Source: an uncultured Verrucomicrobiota bacterium
Lineage (GTDB): Bacteria; Verrucomicrobiota; Verrucomicrobiia; Limisphaerales; UBA9464
Direction: 5' to 3'
Length of the DNA stretch: 64,000 nt
NCBI GenBank assembly: GCA_903910585.1
Contig: CAIWAH010000048.1
Span: forward strand, 1-64,000
Part shown: in pieces, positions 54,986 to 63,372 of the stretch
Layout of the letters: each line of letters begins with the position of its first letter
Position numbering within the stretch: the first letter of the stretch is position 1
The notes under the pieces: generated by a model
What the model saw: the letters and a program-made list of their open reading frames with translations, nothing else
What the model was told of the DNA's origin: nothing
The model's database searches: none
Position numbers and translations under genes: made by a program

Positions 54986-55041
54986 AAACTGCGGAGTCTC
55001 CCAGTGTGCCCAAAACGAAGGCTTGCACCGTAAGCCGAGCT

Positions 55042-55057
55042 TGTGATTTTTTTCACG
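55042..55057. promoter_or_regulatory. CRP/FNR-family-like dyad
   Basis: TGTGA (55042-55046), six T, TCACG (55053-55057). Nine of ten half-site bases agree with the E. coli CRP consensus TGTGA-N6-TCACA. It lies 240 bases before actA, adjacent to another dyad. A cAMP or redox/oxygen-responsive CRP/FNR-type regulator of the respiratory operon is a reasonable inference; no regulator gene is in the window. Confidence 0.5.
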
Positions 55058-55059
55058 AA

Positions 55060-55075
55060 CTGTTCGCGCGAACAG
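55060..55075. promoter_or_regulatory. Perfect 16-bp palindrome matching the LexA-type motif TGTTC-N4-GAACA
   Basis: CTGTTCGCGCGAACAG is a perfect palindrome. Its core TGTTC-GCGC-GAACA equals the motif that, as I recall, was described for LexA of Verrucomicrobia. It starts two bases after the CRP-like dyad. An SOS-type site before alternative complex III genes would be unexpected, so another regulator with a similar palindrome is possible. The exact symmetry makes chance unlikely but not impossible in GC-rich DNA. Confidence 0.5.
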
Positions 55076-55296: not shown

Positions 55297-55932
55297 ATGC
55301 CACAAATTTTCCCCAAATGGGCCAACCAGTTGGCCCCGAAACTCGGTCTCCTTGCCGTGTTGGTCGGCACGGTGGCGATGGCGGGTGTGACCTATTACCT
55401 GACCCCGAAATACACGCGGGTCGGTTATCAGCCGAAGCAGCCGGTGGCGTTTTCCCACAAGATCCACAACGAGCAGCTCGGGATCGATTGCCGCTACTGC
55501 CACAACAACGTGGACGGCTCCTGGTTCTCCAACATTCCGGCGGCCTCCACCTGCATGAACTGCCACAGCCTCATCCTGAAGGATGACCCGAAGCTGGCGC
55601 TCGTGCGGGAGTCGTTTGCGACCGGCAAGCCGATCCCGTGGGTGCAGATCCACAAGGTTCCGGATTACGTCTATTTCAACCACTCCGTCCACGTGAACCG
55701 GGGCATCTCGTGTGTGCATTGCCACGGCGAGATCAACCAGATGGACGAAGTGCAGCACGCGAAACCGCTTTCGATGTCCTTCTGCCTCGATTGCCATCGT
55801 GCTCCCGATCAGAAGATCCGCCCCGTGGATCTGGTGACCCAGCTCGACTGGAAAGGCCAGGTTGACGGCAAACAATTGGTCCATGACTGGAAGGTCCAGC
55901 CCGGCCAGAGCTGCTCCACCTGCCACCGCTGA
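55297..55932 (+). CDS. actA: Alternative complex III subunit ActA, pentahaem cytochrome c
   Basis: Subunit of the quinol:electron-acceptor oxidoreductase complex, 211 residues. An N-terminal membrane anchor (about 14-35) is followed by five CxxCH haem sites: CRYCH (about 65), CMNCH (about 86), CVHCH (about 139), CLDCH (about 163) and CSTCH (about 206). It relays electrons on the periplasmic side to cytochrome c or the oxidase. ATG 55297 is the first gene of an operon reaching beyond the window edge, with actB 21 bases downstream. The length and haem number fit the family. Confidence 0.95.
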   Translation: MPQIFPKWANQLAPKLGLLAVLVGTVAMAGVTYYLTPKYTRVGYQPKQPVAFSHKIHNEQLGIDCRYCHNNVDGSWFSNIPAASTCMNCHSLILKDDPKLALVRESFATGKPIPWVQIHKVPDYVYFNHSVHVNRGISCVHCHGEINQMDEVQHAKPLSMSFCLDCHRAPDQKIRPVDLVTQLDWKGQVDGKQLVHDWKVQPGQSCSTCHR

Positions 55933-55953: not shown

Positions 55954-58900
55954 ATGAAGACGATCCCACCGCCTTGCCCCGAGCCGGAATCCGGCCCGAA
56001 ATACTGGCGTTCGCTCGCCCAGCTCAACGAACAGCCGGAAGTCCGGCAGTGGATTGAGCAGGAGTTTCCCGCCGGTGCCAGCCTGGCGCCGGAAGGTGAA
56101 AGCCGCCGCGACTGGATGAAGCTCATGTCCGCCAGTTTCATGCTGGCGGGCCTTGGTGGAGTGGGAGCCGGATGCCGGCGCCCCGAGGAGCAGTTCCTGC
56201 CCTTCGGCAAACAGCCGGAAAACTACGTGCACGGCGGCTGGCAGCATTTCGCGACCGCGTTTCCCATCCGCGGCACCGCGGTGCCGGTGCTGGTCAAGTC
56301 CACCGACGGCCGGCCGGTGAAGATCGAGCCGAATGACAAGCATCCGGATGCTTCGGGCACCGACTCGCTCGTGCAGGCTTCCGTGCTCGGGCTTTACGAT
56401 CCCGACCGGGCGCATCGCCACACCCTGAACGGCAGCGATGCCAAGCTGACGGCCGTGCAGGACGGGTTGGCGGCCTTGGCGAAGAAGTTTGCCGGAAACG
56501 CCGGCGAAGGGCTCTACATCCTTGCCGAACGCAGCAGCTCGCCGACTCGGGCCCGCCTTCAGGTCCAGCTCGCCGACAAGCTGTCCAAGGCCCGCTGGGT
56601 CAACTACGAGGCCGTGGACTTCGCGGTCGCCCGGGTGGCCGCCTCGACCGCCTTTGCGGCCGATGTCCAGCCGTTCTACAAGCTGGGTTCAGCCAAACGG
56701 ATCCTGTCGCTGGATGCGGATTTCCTCGGCACCGAGCTGGAATCGGCGCGCTACGGCCGCGGCTTTGCCCGTGGCCGCAAGCCCGGCGACGACATGAACC
56801 GCCTGTATGCGGTCGAGTCGCTGATGACTCTGACCGGCGGTCAGGCCGATCACCGGCTGCGGGTCAAGCCCAGCGATGTCGTCAAGGTGGCTGCGCAAGT
56901 CGCGAGCTTCATCATCACCGGCGGCGAACTCGGCAATGCGCTCAGGACGTTGGCGCAGGGTTCGCCGGCCCCTGCCAAATGGGCCGAGGAGTGCGCGAGC
57001 GATCTGGCTTCGAAGAAGGGTGAAGCCGTGGTGCTGGCAGGTTATGCCCAGCCGCTCGCGGTGCAGCTGATTGCCTTGGCGCTGAACGAAGTCCTGGGTG
57101 CGGTCGGCAAGACCGTCGAACTGCACAAGGCGGAGCAGCCGGCCGACACCGGCAGCATTTTGGAACTGGCGGCGGCCCTGAAGTCCGGCGGCGTGGACAC
57201 CTTGGTCATTCTCGGTGGCAATCCGGCCTACAATGCTCCGGCCGATGCCGACTTCGCCAACGTGACCAAGCTGGCGAAGACAATTGTCCGGCTGGGGGCC
57301 TACGAGGACGAGACCGCGGCGTTGCGGGGCAAGGAAGCTACCTGGCATCTCGCGGCCGCCCACTACCTCGAGTCGTGGGGCGACGCCCGGACCAGTGACG
57401 GTTCGGTGGTGCCGATCCAGCCGCTGATTGAGCCGCTGTTCGGTGGTCTCACGGAAATAGAGGTGCTCAGCCGCCTGCTGGGTGCGGAGAAGCCGTCGGC
57501 TTACGAGCAGGTGCGGGAAACGTTCAAGGGACTGGCCAGCGCGGACGAAAACGCGTGGAAGAAGTTCCTGTTCCAGGGCTTTTTGGACGACTCCGCCGCG
57601 AAGCCCGTGTCAGCCAGTTTGGACGCCGGCAAAGTCGCCGGAGTGCTGGCGGCCTACAAGCCGGCCAAGTCCGAGGGATTTGAAGTCGTCCTGGCGCGGG
57701 ATGCCAAGGTGGACGATGGCCGTTACAGCAACAACGGCTGGTTGCAGGAACTGCCCGATCCGGTCACGAAGGTGACGTGGGAGAACGTGATTGTCGTTTC
57801 GCCCAAGACCGGAAAGGAGCTGGGCGTAAGCGGCCAGGGCAAGGGTGACAAGGCTGACAATTCCCAGGCTCACGACGGGCAATACAATCAGGCCTTCCTG
57901 AAGGTTTCCGTGAACGGTGTGGCCGTCGAAGGTCCGGTTTGGATTCAGCCGGGCTTGGCCGATGGGGTTGTCGGCCTGGCCTTGGGCTACGGTCGGAAAG
58001 TGGTCGGCCGGGTTGGCCGGAACTGCGGGTATGACGCCTACGCGCTTTTCCAGAGTGCCAGCCGGCACTTGGTCGCCGGGGCCAAGGTCGAAAAGGTCTT
58101 CCGCAAGCAATACCTCGGCGTCACCCAGGAGCACGGCCTGATGGAAGGCCGCCCGGTGATCCGCGAAGCCAATCTGGACCAGTTCAAGGCGAAGCCGGAG
58201 TTCGCCAAGAACATGGACTTGGACGCGCACTTGCCGCACTTCGTCCCCCGGGAGGACGACAACGATCCGAAGAGTCCGCTCAAGAACATCTACAAGCATC
58301 CCTACAAGCAGAATCCCTTCACCAAGTCGGAGATTCACCAGTGGGGCATGGTGCTGGATTTGGCGAGCTGCACCGGCTGCTCGGCCTGTGTGATCGCCTG
58401 CCAGGCCGAGAACAACATCCCCATCGTCGGCAAGGCGCAGGTCATGCGCGGCCGCGAGATGCACTGGATGCGCATCGACCGCTACTACAGCCACGATCCG
58501 GCGTCGGATGTGACCGCGGAGACCGCCGCGGCCGACCCCCAGATGGCGGTCCAGCCGATGTTCTGCCAGCACTGCGAAAGCGCGCCGTGCGAAAGCGTCT
58601 GCCCGGCGAACGCGACGGTTCACGACGAGGAAGGTCTCAACGTAATGGCCTACAACCGCTGCATCGGCACGCGGTATTGCGCCAACAACTGCCCGTATAA
58701 GGTCCGGCGCTTCAACTTCTTCGACTACAACAAGCGGGAAACTGCCTACGGCAGCGGCAAGGGGAACTTCTTCTTCAACGTCGAGGATCCCCTGTATCAC
58801 GGTCCGCTCGGCAAGAACCGCAATGCCGATCCGGAGTGGGAGATCATCAAGCTGGTGAAAAACCCCGACGTCACGGTCCGCATGCGCGGTGTGATGGAGA

Positions 58901-59319
58901 AATGCACCTTCTGCGTGCAGCGGATCGAGCAGGCCAAGATCGCGCAGAAGAACAAGGCGAAGGGCAGCGGCGACGTGCGCGTGCCGGATGGAACCGTCAA
59001 GACGGCGTGTCAGCAGGCCTGTCCTGCCGAGGCCATCACATTCGGTAACATGCTCGACCCGGAGAGCGCGGTCAGCAAGCTGAAGCAGGACGTGCGGGAT
59101 TACACCGTGCTCGGCTTCCTCGATAACAAGCCCCGCGTCACCTATCTGGCGCGTGTGCGCAACCCGAATCCGAAGATGCCGGAATCGCCCAAGACCCCGG
59201 ATTCACAGCGCGACTACGAACGATTCCGCCACGAGAACCCGTTTGAAGAACATGGTGCCGGACATGGCCAAGACGAGAAACACGCCGCCTTGCCGGCCAG
59301 CCAGAAAGGAGCCGCGTAA
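55954..59319 (+). CDS. actB: Alternative complex III subunit ActB (molybdopterin-like plus iron-sulfur fusion)
   Basis: Protein of 1121 residues. A Tat-like twin-arginine stretch [18 protein letters not shown] (about 50-67) targets it to the periplasmic face. Residues about 75-760 resemble a molybdopterin oxidoreductase fold that in ActB carries no cofactor. The iron-sulfur part starts near residue 800. Cysteine clusters are [45 protein letters not shown] and CQQACP, giving three [4Fe-4S] and one [3Fe-4S] as in known ActB. The two halves are one chain here, as is usual. The stop TAA overlaps the actC ATG (TAATG). Confidence 0.96.
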
Positions 59320-60800
59320 TGGCTAAAGCCGCCGCCATCCCCGCCGGGGTCGCCGCCAAGGCGGATTCACACGACCATCACGCGCCGCCGCAGCTGAAGG
59401 TCGCCGAGCCGCCCAAGGAACTGGAGCGCGAGCCACTGGTGCTCAACAACCGTTCGCTGACGTGGATCACGGACGCCATCGCCGGCGTCTGCGAGAAGCC
59501 GATGCCGAAGTGGTGGTGGCCGGCCTTCATCCTCAGCGCGGGCACGATGGGCATGATGTTCTCGCTCATCGCCTACCTGATCTCGACCGGCGTCGGTGTC
59601 TGGGGTCTGAACCAGCCCGCCGATTGGGCGTGGGACATCACGAACTTCGTCTTCTGGATCGGCATCGGCCACGCGGGCACGCTGATCTCCGCGGTGCTCT
59701 GCCTGCTGCGGCAGAAGTGGCGGACCTCGATCAACCGCGCCGCCGAAGCAATGACCATCTTTGCCGTGGCGTGCGCCGGTATCTTCCCGGTGGTGCATAC
59801 GGGCCGTGTCTGGTTTGCGCTGTTCCCGGGCTACCTGATTCCGTTCCCGAATTCGAATGGCATTTGGCCGCAGTTCCGCTCGCCGCTGCTGTGGGACGTG
59901 TTCGCCGTCTCCACCTACGGCACGGTCTCGTTGCTGTTCTGGTATACGGGTCTGATACCCGACCTCGCCACGCTCCGTGACCGGGCGACACACAAGGTTC
60001 GCCGGTTCTTCTACGGGCTGTTCTCGCTGGGTTGGACCGGCTCGAACCGCCACTGGAGCAACTACGAGAAGGCTTACCTCATCCTCGCCGGCCTGAGCAC
60101 GCCCCTGGTGCTCTCCGTGCACTCGATCGTGTCGTTCGACTTCGCGGTGTCGCAGGTTCCCGGCTGGCACACGACCATCTTCCCGCCCTACTTCGTCGCC
60201 GGCGCGATCTTTTCCGGCTTCGGCATGGTGCTGACGCTGATGATCCCAATGCGGGCGCTGTTCAACCTGCACGACATCATCACCACCCGGCACATCGAGC
60301 TGATGTGCAAGGTGCTGCTCGCGACCGGTTCCATCGTGGGTTACGCCTACGGGATGGAGTTCTTCATCGCGTGGTATGGCGGCAGCCCCTACGAGCTCTA
60401 TGCCTTCAAGAACCGCGCGTTCGGCCCCTACTGGTGGAGCTACTGGAGCATGATCACCTGCAACGTGATCAGCCCGCACTTCTTCTGGTTCAAGAAACTC
60501 CGCACCAACGTGGTGTTCGTCTGGATCGTGTCGTGCTTCGTCAATGTGGGCATGTGGTTCGAGCGCTTCGTGATCATCGTCACCTCGCTGCATCGCGACT
60601 ACCTGCCGTCGAGCTGGGGTTATTTCACTCCGACTTGGGTGGACGTGTTCACCTTCGTCGGCAGCTTCGGCCTCTTCATGACGCTGTTCCTGCTGTTCAT
60701 CCGCTTCCTCCCGGCGATCTCGATCACCGAGGTGAAGGCGGTGACACCGCAGGCCGATCCGCATCATCCGCTCGGCGGCGCGAAGGGGCACCATCACTGA
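59319..60800 (+). CDS. actC: Alternative complex III subunit ActC (NrfD/PsrC-like)
   Basis: Integral membrane subunit of 493 residues with about ten helices, a member of the NrfD/PsrC family that carries the quinol site. The N-terminus is a soluble Ala/His/Pro-rich stretch; [20 protein letters not shown] leads to the first helix. Conserved parts include [73 protein letters not shown] and [20 protein letters not shown]. The start codon overlaps the actB stop, with AGAAAGGA upstream as ribosome-binding site. Confidence 0.95.
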
Positions 60801-60812
60801 GCAAGGAAACGA

Positions 60813-61355
60813 ATGAGCGCTAAACCTCTTGGCCTCCTGGCCCAGTTTGAGACCGCGGCGGACATCATGAATGCCGCGCTCGCCGTGCGGGATGCCGGCT
60901 TCAAAAAGTGGGACGTGTTCACGCCGTTCCCGATCCACGGGATGGACGACGCCATGGCCCTGCCCAACTCGAAGGTGGGTTACTTCACCTTCGCGGGCGG
61001 CCTCACCGGCTTCTTCACCGGCATGAGCATGATCTGGTTCATGAACAAGTTCGACTACCCGCTGGTGGTCGGCGGCAAACCGCTGTTCACCCCGCTGTTC
61101 GCTTTCCCGGTGAGCTACGAACTGACCATCCTGCTGAGCGCCTTCGGCACGCTCTTCGGCCTCGCGCTGCTCAACCGTCTGCCGAAGCTGCACAATCCGC
61201 TGTTCGCCTCCGAACGGTTCAAGCGGGCGACGAACGACAAGTTCTTCGTCTTTGTGGAAACCGCCGACCCGAAATTCTCGGAAACTGAGACCCGCGCCCT
61301 GCTGGAAAAGCTGGGCGCCTCGGCCATCGAGGAAATCCAGGACACGAAGGACTGA
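60813..61355 (+). CDS. actD: Alternative complex III subunit ActD (DUF3341)
   Basis: Membrane subunit of 180 residues. It begins with a cytoplasmic domain (GLLAQFETAADIMNAALAVRDAGFKKWDVFTPFPIHGMDDAM). Two membrane helices follow (about 58-78 and 93-113), then a C-terminal ferredoxin-like part with FKRATNDKFFVFVETADPKFSETETRALLEKLGA. This DUF3341 layout is characteristic of ActD. ATG 60813 is 12 bases after actC, and actE starts 3 bases after its stop. Confidence 0.94.
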   Translation: MSAKPLGLLAQFETAADIMNAALAVRDAGFKKWDVFTPFPIHGMDDAMALPNSKVGYFTFAGGLTGFFTGMSMIWFMNKFDYPLVVGGKPLFTPLFAFPVSYELTILLSAFGTLFGLALLNRLPKLHNPLFASERFKRATNDKFFVFVETADPKFSETETRALLEKLGASAIEEIQDTKD

Positions 61356-61358
61356 GCC

Positions 61359-62042
61359 ATGTTTGAGAAAATCGCCCTCTTCTTTCTGTCACTGCTCGGC
61401 AGCCGCTTCAAGGTGACCGTGGGTCTCTTCGCCCTCACCGTGGTTGCGGTGGTTTCCGTCGCCGGTTTCCGTGGCTCCGCCACCCGCCGGACCCCGATCG
61501 AACTCTTCCCGGACATGGACCGGCAGCCCAAGCTGCGGCCCCAGACTGCCAGCGCCTTCGCCGCCTTCGCCGACGGCCGCAGTTCCCGCACCGTTCCGGT
61601 CGGGACGGTGGCCCAGCGCCGTGGCTTCTCCGAAAACGCCTACTGGGAGGACAACGCCTTCAACACCGGCAAGGACAACGGCGCCTTCGTTGAGGTCGGC
61701 CCCCTGCCGGTCACCGCCGAATTCCTCGCGCGTGGTCAGCAGCGGTTCAACATCTACTGCCAGCCCTGCCATGGCGCGCAGGCCGACGGCAATGGCGGCA
61801 TCACCAAGAAGCTCGGCATGAGCACCGTCGCCAACCTGATGGACCCGCGCATCATCAAGATGAACGACGGCGAGATCTTCAACACCATCACCCACGGCAA
61901 GGCCACCATGATGGGCTACGCGACCCAGGTTCCGCCTGAGGACCGTTGGGCCATCATCGCCTACGTCCGGGCGCTGCAGCTCAGCCGGCTTGGATTTGAA
62001 GCCGATGTGCCCGCTCCTGAACTGGCCAAACTGAAGAAGTAA
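61359..62042 (+). CDS. actE: Alternative complex III subunit ActE, monohaem cytochrome c
   Basis: Membrane-anchored cytochrome of 227 residues. One N-terminal helix (about 18-38) is followed by a c-type domain with haem site YCQPCHGAQADGNG (about 133-146) and a probable Met ligand in KATMMGYATQVPPEDRW. It accepts electrons from the ActA/ActB side and can pass them on to an oxidase. It lies 3 bases after actD and 4 before actF. Confidence 0.95.
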   Translation: MFEKIALFFLSLLGSRFKVTVGLFALTVVAVVSVAGFRGSATRRTPIELFPDMDRQPKLRPQTASAFAAFADGRSSRTVPVGTVAQRRGFSENAYWEDNAFNTGKDNGAFVEVGPLPVTAEFLARGQQRFNIYCQPCHGAQADGNGGITKKLGMSTVANLMDPRIIKMNDGEIFNTITHGKATMMGYATQVPPEDRWAIIAYVRALQLSRLGFEADVPAPELAKLKK

Positions 62043-62046
62043 CCCC

Positions 62047-63372
62047 ATGAACTTTCCCCTCTTCTTCAAGCGTATCCTCGCCGCGTTGGCGTGCGTCGGA
62101 ATTCTGACGTTCGCCACCGCCCGGGTCCTCGCTGCCGAACATGCTGAAGCACCGAAGGCCGTCGCCGGACAGGCAGCCCATGCGGAAACTCCGGATGCCC
62201 ATGGGCACGATGCGCATGGCCATGGCGGTCCCGATTCCTCCGACATCGTCCAGCAGTTCGGATACAGCTACCTCACCGCGTTCATGTTCGTGCTGAGCCT
62301 GATCGTGGCCTCGATGTTCTTCATCCTGATCCACCATCTGTTTGACGCCGCGTGGAGCGTGCCCGTGATGCGCATCGCGGAACACATGGCGAACCTGATC
62401 TTCCCATGGGGCTTCGCGGCCCTCCTGCCGATCATCGGCCTCGCCTTGGCCGGCAAGCTGCACCCTTGGATGCCGCTGACCGACTGGAGCCTGACTCCCA
62501 CCGCCGCCGCCGATCCGTCGCTGGCCGTGAAGTCGGTGATGTTCAACAAGCTCAGCTTCACCGTGCTCTTGCTTGGCATCTTCGGTTTTTGGGCCTGGAT
62601 GGCGCGCAGTTTCCGAGGCTATTCCTTGGCGCAGGACAAGGACGGCGCCGCGATCTGGACGCGCAAGGCCCGTTTCCTGGCGGGCTGGGGCATCTTCGCC
62701 TTTTCGGTCACCGTGACCGTGGCGGTGTTCCTGCTGATGAAGTCGCTGCAGCACCAGTTTTTCAGCACGATGTATGGCGTTTACTACTTCGCCGGCAGCA
62801 TGTGGACGACGCTGGCGACGTATTACGGCATCACCCGCTGGCTTCAACGCAAGGAACTCAGGCCCGTCATCCTGCCGAACCACATCCACGATCTCGGCAA
62901 GTGGTTCTTCGCCTTCACCGTCTTCTACGCCTACATCCATTTTTCGCAGTATTTCCTCATCTGGAACGCCGCCGTGCCGGAAGAGACGTTCTGGTATGTG
63001 CTGCGTGAGAAGGGCACGTGGGAACATATGGGCTTCCTGATCCTGTTCGGGCACTTCTTCCTGCCGTTCCTGCTGCTCCTGCGCATCGATACCAAGATGA
63101 GCCTCAACGTCATGGGGCCGATGATTTTCTGGGCCTGGCTGATGCACTACGTGGACATGACCTACAACGTCATGCCGGTCCTTTATCCCAAAGGTCTGAA
63201 CATCACGTTGTGGGACCCGCTTTGCTTCGGTGCCTTGGTGGCGGTGTTTGGCTGGGCATGGCTGAAGGACTTCCGCGCCTTCCCTGCTTGGCCGCAGAAA
63301 CACCCGCGCCTCAAGGAAGCGTTGGTTCACCATGAAATTCCCAAGGCCGGTCAGGCTGCGGCGCACCATTGA
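62047..63372 (+). CDS. actF: Alternative complex III subunit ActF (NrfD-like)
   Basis: Integral membrane subunit of 441 residues, structurally related to ActC, with about ten helices. A His-rich linker (HAETPDAHGHDAHGHGGP, about 51-68) follows the first helix. Recognisable parts are FVLSLIVASMFFILIHHLFDAAWSVPVMRIAEHMANLIFPWG, YAYIHFSQYFLIWNAAVPEETFWY and WLMHYVDMTYNVMPVL. This pattern is typical of quinol:cytochrome c oxidoreductase ActF. The start ATG 62047 is four bases after actE. A small membrane-protein gene follows. Confidence 0.95.
   Translation: MNFPLFFKRILAALACVGILTFATARVLAAEHAEAPKAVAGQAAHAETPDAHGHDAHGHGGPDSSDIVQQFGYSYLTAFMFVLSLIVASMFFILIHHLFDAAWSVPVMRIAEHMANLIFPWGFAALLPIIGLALAGKLHPWMPLTDWSLTPTAAADPSLAVKSVMFNKLSFTVLLLGIFGFWAWMARSFRGYSLAQDKDGAAIWTRKARFLAGWGIFAFSVTVTVAVFLLMKSLQHQFFSTMYGVYYFAGSMWTTLATYYGITRWLQRKELRPVILPNHIHDLGKWFFAFTVFYAYIHFSQYFLIWNAAVPEETFWYVLREKGTWEHMGFLILFGHFFLPFLLLLRIDTKMSLNVMGPMIFWAWLMHYVDMTYNVMPVLYPKGLNITLWDPLCFGALVAVFGWAWLKDFRAFPAWPQKHPRLKEALVHHEIPKAGQAAAHH

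Follow-up and report, generated by a model that had tools for sequence, protein, structure and literature searches.

The window, by which is meant the whole stretch of DNA that was analysed, 64,000 nucleotides in length, carries the operon for an alternative complex III (ACIII), the respiratory complex that substitutes for cytochrome bc1 in many bacteria and about whose control of expression, to our knowledge, little is known. That such an operon lies here had been called in the original prediction and is borne out by the domain content of the genes downstream of the two dyads that are the subject of this report (Table 1). Past the end of the window, COX1, FixO-like and cytochrome c genes follow the actF-like ORF on the same strand, and for that reason the act transcript may include the terminal oxidase, i.e., the operon may continue into cbb3-like oxidase genes with a single transcript for ACIII and the oxidase. 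Downstream of the act and oxidase genes, after dnaG, recA is on the opposite strand (L276:6831-8036, minus; about 68.8-70.0 kb on contig C48 of this genome, G000), and its promoter falls beyond the contig end.

Table 1. Features at the act locus, in order along the window
Feature	Position	Strand	Basis
CTTGC box	55022..55026	+	kept 15-19 bp 5' of the operator; each base common to 23-26 of 26 aligned promoters
Predicted Rex operator (left dyad), TTGTGATTTTTTTCACGA	55041..55058	+	core GTGA-W6-TCAC at 55043-55056, 254 bp before the actA ATG; conservation, rarity, Rex consensus match
Perfect 16-bp palindrome (right dyad), LexA-like, CTGTTCGCGCGAACAG	55060..55075	+	chance frequency; absent from relatives
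actA, multihaem cytochrome c subunit of ACIII	55297..55932	+	cytochrome c7/c3 Pfam, partial QrcA matches; first gene after the operator
actB, fused molybdopterin-oxidoreductase-like and 4Fe-4S protein	55954..59319	+	Fer4_7, TAT-variant MoCo domain, partial QrcB/QrcC matches
actC, NrfD-like membrane subunit	59319..60800	+	PF03916, 5.2e-21
actD-like ORF	60813..61355	+	operon position
actE-like ORF with c-type haem motif	61359..62042	+	CQPCH in translation
actF-like membrane subunit ORF	62047..63372	+	operon position

The two dyads are present exactly as first described, 222-256 bp 5' of the operon: the left one, TGTGATTTTTTTCACG (55042-55057), is the inner part of TTGTGATTTTTTTCACGA, and a gap of 2 bases separates it from the right one. 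Is either of them more than what chance would place in a stretch of this length? Within the window alone, neither is above chance. Allowing one mismatch, TGTGA-N6-TCACA has 1 match there against 0.97 expected and TGTTC-N4-GAACA 1 match against 1.32 expected, while perfect 16-bp palindromes number 3 against 2.65 in shuffled windows, the other two, at 56271 and 56338, both being inside actB. Once genome-wide counts and relatives are considered, the standing of the two diverges. GTGA-W6-TCAC has 3 sites in the 5.33 Mb genome where about 0.16 are expected (reversed control 0), and the genome-wide search for exact TGTTC-N4-GAACA yields just 2 sites against 1.7-3.4 expected, which is no enrichment.

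Conservation was sampled in 33 members of this genome's family (f1) for which the sequence upstream of actA is readable. The 16-base core TTGTGATTTTTTTCAC is letter-identical 5' of actA in 26 of them, and the 7 that lack it make up precisely genus g3 (G003, G010, G016, G021, G024, G028 and G032), outside which the core is invariant in 26 of 26; degenerate Rex sites were sought in the g3 act promoters and none that convinced was found. In the aligned act promoters the sequence flanking the operator is poorly kept, except for a few operator-adjacent bases and the CTTGC box, possibly a -35-type promoter element; a scan with the sigma-70 consensus recognised no promoter in the act upstream region. 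In more distant families GTGAAAAATTTCAC, GTGAAATTTTTCAC and similar sequences are found 5' of actA, and among 107 act loci, drawn from two collections with some species counted twice, 63 have GTGA-W6-TCAC at most 450 bp upstream. The proposal had been that both dyads are regulatory, and the comparison of actA upstream regions separates them: the left dyad is conserved to the extent just given, and the right dyad was not found in any relative whose act promoter was compared, the same genus included, where its counterpart reads CTGTTTGCGCGCCCAG.

What genes stand behind the sites? Of the only three copies of GTGA-W6-TCAC in the genome, one is 254 bp upstream of actA, another 92 bp upstream of nuoB (complex I, nuoBCD) and the third about 90-102 bp upstream of atpB (ATP synthase subunit a). 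In relatives a site is within 450 bp upstream at 21 of 30 nuoB loci and 16 of 30 atpB loci, and the remainder of the same loci, about 724 kb, has 1 site. The act promoters of genus g3 (L099, L101, L102, L103, L105, L108, L240) have lost the act site with the nuoB site mostly kept, and genus g8 is the reverse, the nuoB site being lost and the act site kept. Of 77 sites listed for this genome and 15 relatives, 34 precede actA, nuoB or atpB; 33 of the other 43 were inspected, and they mostly have different flanks, many being within reading frames, as expected of chance sites. Full TTGTGA..TCACAA flanks are present at 5 of those inspected, and all 5, in relatives, are before an operon that encodes first a secreted protein carrying a carboxypeptidase-regulatory-like domain and then a CtaA-family haem A synthase (cytochrome-oxidase assembly); one further remaining site, TTGTGAAAAATTTCACGA, precedes a class V aminotransferase. 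This arrangement, with the secreted-protein gene directly before CtaA and a Rex-like site upstream, was seen in five genomes of the order (L244, L246, L252, L262, L265), and the secreted protein has perhaps to do with copper handling or oxidase assembly.

Rex is a repressor that senses NADH/NAD+. Its consensus is TTGTGAA-N4-TTCACAA (PMC2883068), given in the same form, after Ravcheev et al. 2012, in PMC5317091, and 12 of the 14 arm bases of TTGTGATTTTTTTCACGA match it. For Staphylococcus aureus Rex it is TTGTGAAW4TTCACAA, an A/T-rich spacer being best (PMC2883068); the operator here is alike in its spacer, and differs in having GTGAT, in place of GTGAA, in its left half-site and a G at position 17. 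With the footprinted atpI Rex site of Streptomyces avermitilis, TTGTGATACGGTTCACGA (PMC5355995), all 14 arm bases are shared and only the 4-base spacer differs. One Rex is encoded in the genome (L134:1166-1831; NF003992 at 9.5e-74 and Rex models at about 1e-73), and its matches to Rex chains in the PDB are at 1e-41 to 1e-43. The eight residues with which Thermotoga maritima Rex contacts DNA, K43, Q46, R48, K49, G58, R60, G61 and Y64 (PMC8836258), are all preserved in it, in a 23-residue stretch, and the NAD-binding GVGNLG Rossmann motif is retained. In the sequence read at the rex locus of this genome, no GTGA-N6-TCAC core was seen at rex's own promoter.

The TGTGA-N6-TCACA half-sites of CRP/FNR operators are common to the Rex consensus. 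The left dyad has 9 of the 10 CRP consensus bases and was originally ascribed to a CRP/FNR-type protein, and one such protein at least, with a clear Crp-type HTH, is encoded in the genome (G000:C109). Because the two consensus sequences overlap, the presence of rex and of CRP genes was compared with that of sites in 38 genomes, 32 with a Rex match and 6 without. At least one site is present in 30 of the 32 with rex, and 4 of the 6 without a rex match have none (Fisher p=0.003, kinship ignored); the mean number of sites per genome is 3.2 with rex and 0.33 without a match. The exceptions are G010 and G046, with rex and no site, G038, with no rex and one atypical site, and G015 (76% complete), which has a site and no rex match. 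Four genomes (G041, G044, G045, G048) have neither rex nor sites, yet do have strong CRP/FNR-type HTH proteins, and two (G036, G047), although they give no match to PF13545, the CRP/FNR HTH, retain the nuoB and atpB sites, G047 having one at actA as well. Since relatives without rex are mostly siteless despite their CRP/FNR proteins, and those with no detected CRP/FNR protein keep sites, the left dyad is best read as a predicted Rex site and not a CRP one. A spacer of purely A/T bases and a gene set of nuo, atp, act and cta are also Rex-like, and with the sites before nuo, atp, act and ctaA tracking rex rather than Crp-type genes, the CRP/FNR identity was dropped, it being improbable that a member of that family is what the left dyad serves.

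How might such a circuit work? Binding of Rex to the left dyad, the sign of its effect on transcription and the layout of the promoter are taken here by analogy with the Rex family. At a low NADH/NAD+ ratio, Rex with NAD+ bound would occupy TTGTGATTTTTTTCACGA and keep the act operon repressed; as NADH accumulates, Rex would be released, and because it is NADH that releases it, complex I, ACIII with its oxidase, and ATP synthase would rise together, with NADH being reoxidised. In S. avermitilis, Rex represses the nuo, atp and cyd operons and NADH relieves the repression (PMC5355995). The likeness is in the Rex sites before the nuo and atp operons; the difference is that other respiratory targets there include cydABCD and rex-hemACD (PMC5355995), whereas in the present lineage the predicted ones are the ACIII/oxidase operon and, in relatives, the ctaA operon. 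S. aureus differs in that Rex there acts mainly on genes for fermentation and nitrate respiration (PMC2883068). The left dyad would be a new Rex-site assignment, as a predicted site, within a known type of circuit, and a limited literature search found no paper that links Rex to ACIII. It is the combination of ACIII regulation being little studied and the prediction being directly testable that makes the Rex site moderately interesting: the predicted NADH-sensing circuit, with complex I, ACIII plus oxidase and ATP synthase co-regulated in the largely uncultured Verrucomicrobiota, is concrete and open to direct experiment.

What then of the right dyad? The most likely reading is that it is a recent, species-specific chance palindrome without function. 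For the two together, it is highly probable that the left dyad is a Rex operator at which NAD+-Rex represses act, and that its neighbour is a nonfunctional palindrome of recent origin.

Though perfect 16-bp symmetry, a position 2 bases off the Rex core and proximity to the promoter would suit a species-specific operator for another dimeric repressor acting beside Rex, the count of such palindromes in the window is about that of the shuffled windows, and the right dyad is not conserved, so such an operator is unlikely. The same small weight attaches to species-specific dual control, in which the family-wide Rex site would have been joined by a newly evolved palindrome adjacent to it for another repressor, perhaps one resembling LexA whose gene escaped the incomplete assembly; if true, it would be a recent rewiring of the respiratory chain in one species. 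That the right dyad belongs to a terminator of transcription or to an RNA leader is very doubtful, and the idea was dropped: it could fold into a 6-bp stem closed by a loop of 4 bases, but no T-run follows the right dyad, the terminator scan does not include it and the region has no Rfam match.

There remains the reading that gave the right dyad its initial appeal, a working LexA (SOS) operator coupling DNA damage to ACIII. TGTTC-N4-GAACA, which the right dyad matches, is reportedly the LexA motif of Verrucomicrobia. In two genomes of another genus of the family (G019, G022) CTGTTCATTTGAACAG adjoins lexA, and both its arms equal the CTGTTC-N4-GAACAG of the right dyad; the genome's only other exact copy of the motif, TGTTCCAAAGAACA (L002:1501-1514; G000 C72:8026-8039), is 17 bp 5' of the start codon of dnaN. 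Against it, neither the LexA DNA-binding domain (PF01726) nor the S24 peptidase domain (PF00717) was found in this genome or in that of its same-genus relative (G001), where absence of lexA is likely, and not certain, because both assemblies, the present one at 89%, are less than 90% complete. Moreover, both TGTTC-N4-GAACA sites of G001 are within coding regions. This genome departs from the Verrucomicrobia LexA system in having no detectable LexA and in the right dyad's lack of conservation, and with a genome count at the level of chance as well, the LexA identity was abandoned as the least probable of all the readings, scarcely to be entertained. The proposed link between SOS and respiration is unsupported on the same grounds, and as an account of the right dyad it was misleading and is here corrected. 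As to the motif on its own, G039 (98% complete) has ten exact TGTTC-N4-GAACA sites, although neither a LexA nor an S24 domain was detected in that genome, and base composition may explain them.

Taking TGTTC-N4-GAACA for a LexA motif was reasonable, as it does adjoin lexA in G019 and G022; where this goes too far is in generality, for even in this order other lexA genes bear different palindromes. The lexA promoter palindromes of G007, G037, G043, G044 and G048 do not match the motif of the right dyad. In the lexA-upstream loci compared (L132, L239, L235, L127 in reverse, L128, L131 in reverse, and L124), the lexA-proximal palindromes are, besides the one shared by G019 and G022, CTGGTCATGTGACCAG (G007), CTATCCATTTGGATAG (G043), CTATCCATCCGGATAG (G037), CTATACATTTGTATAG (G044) and CTATACAAATGTATAG (G048). 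They differ among these relatives with one frame in common, which suggests that the LexA operator changes rapidly within a single order, even inside genus g7.
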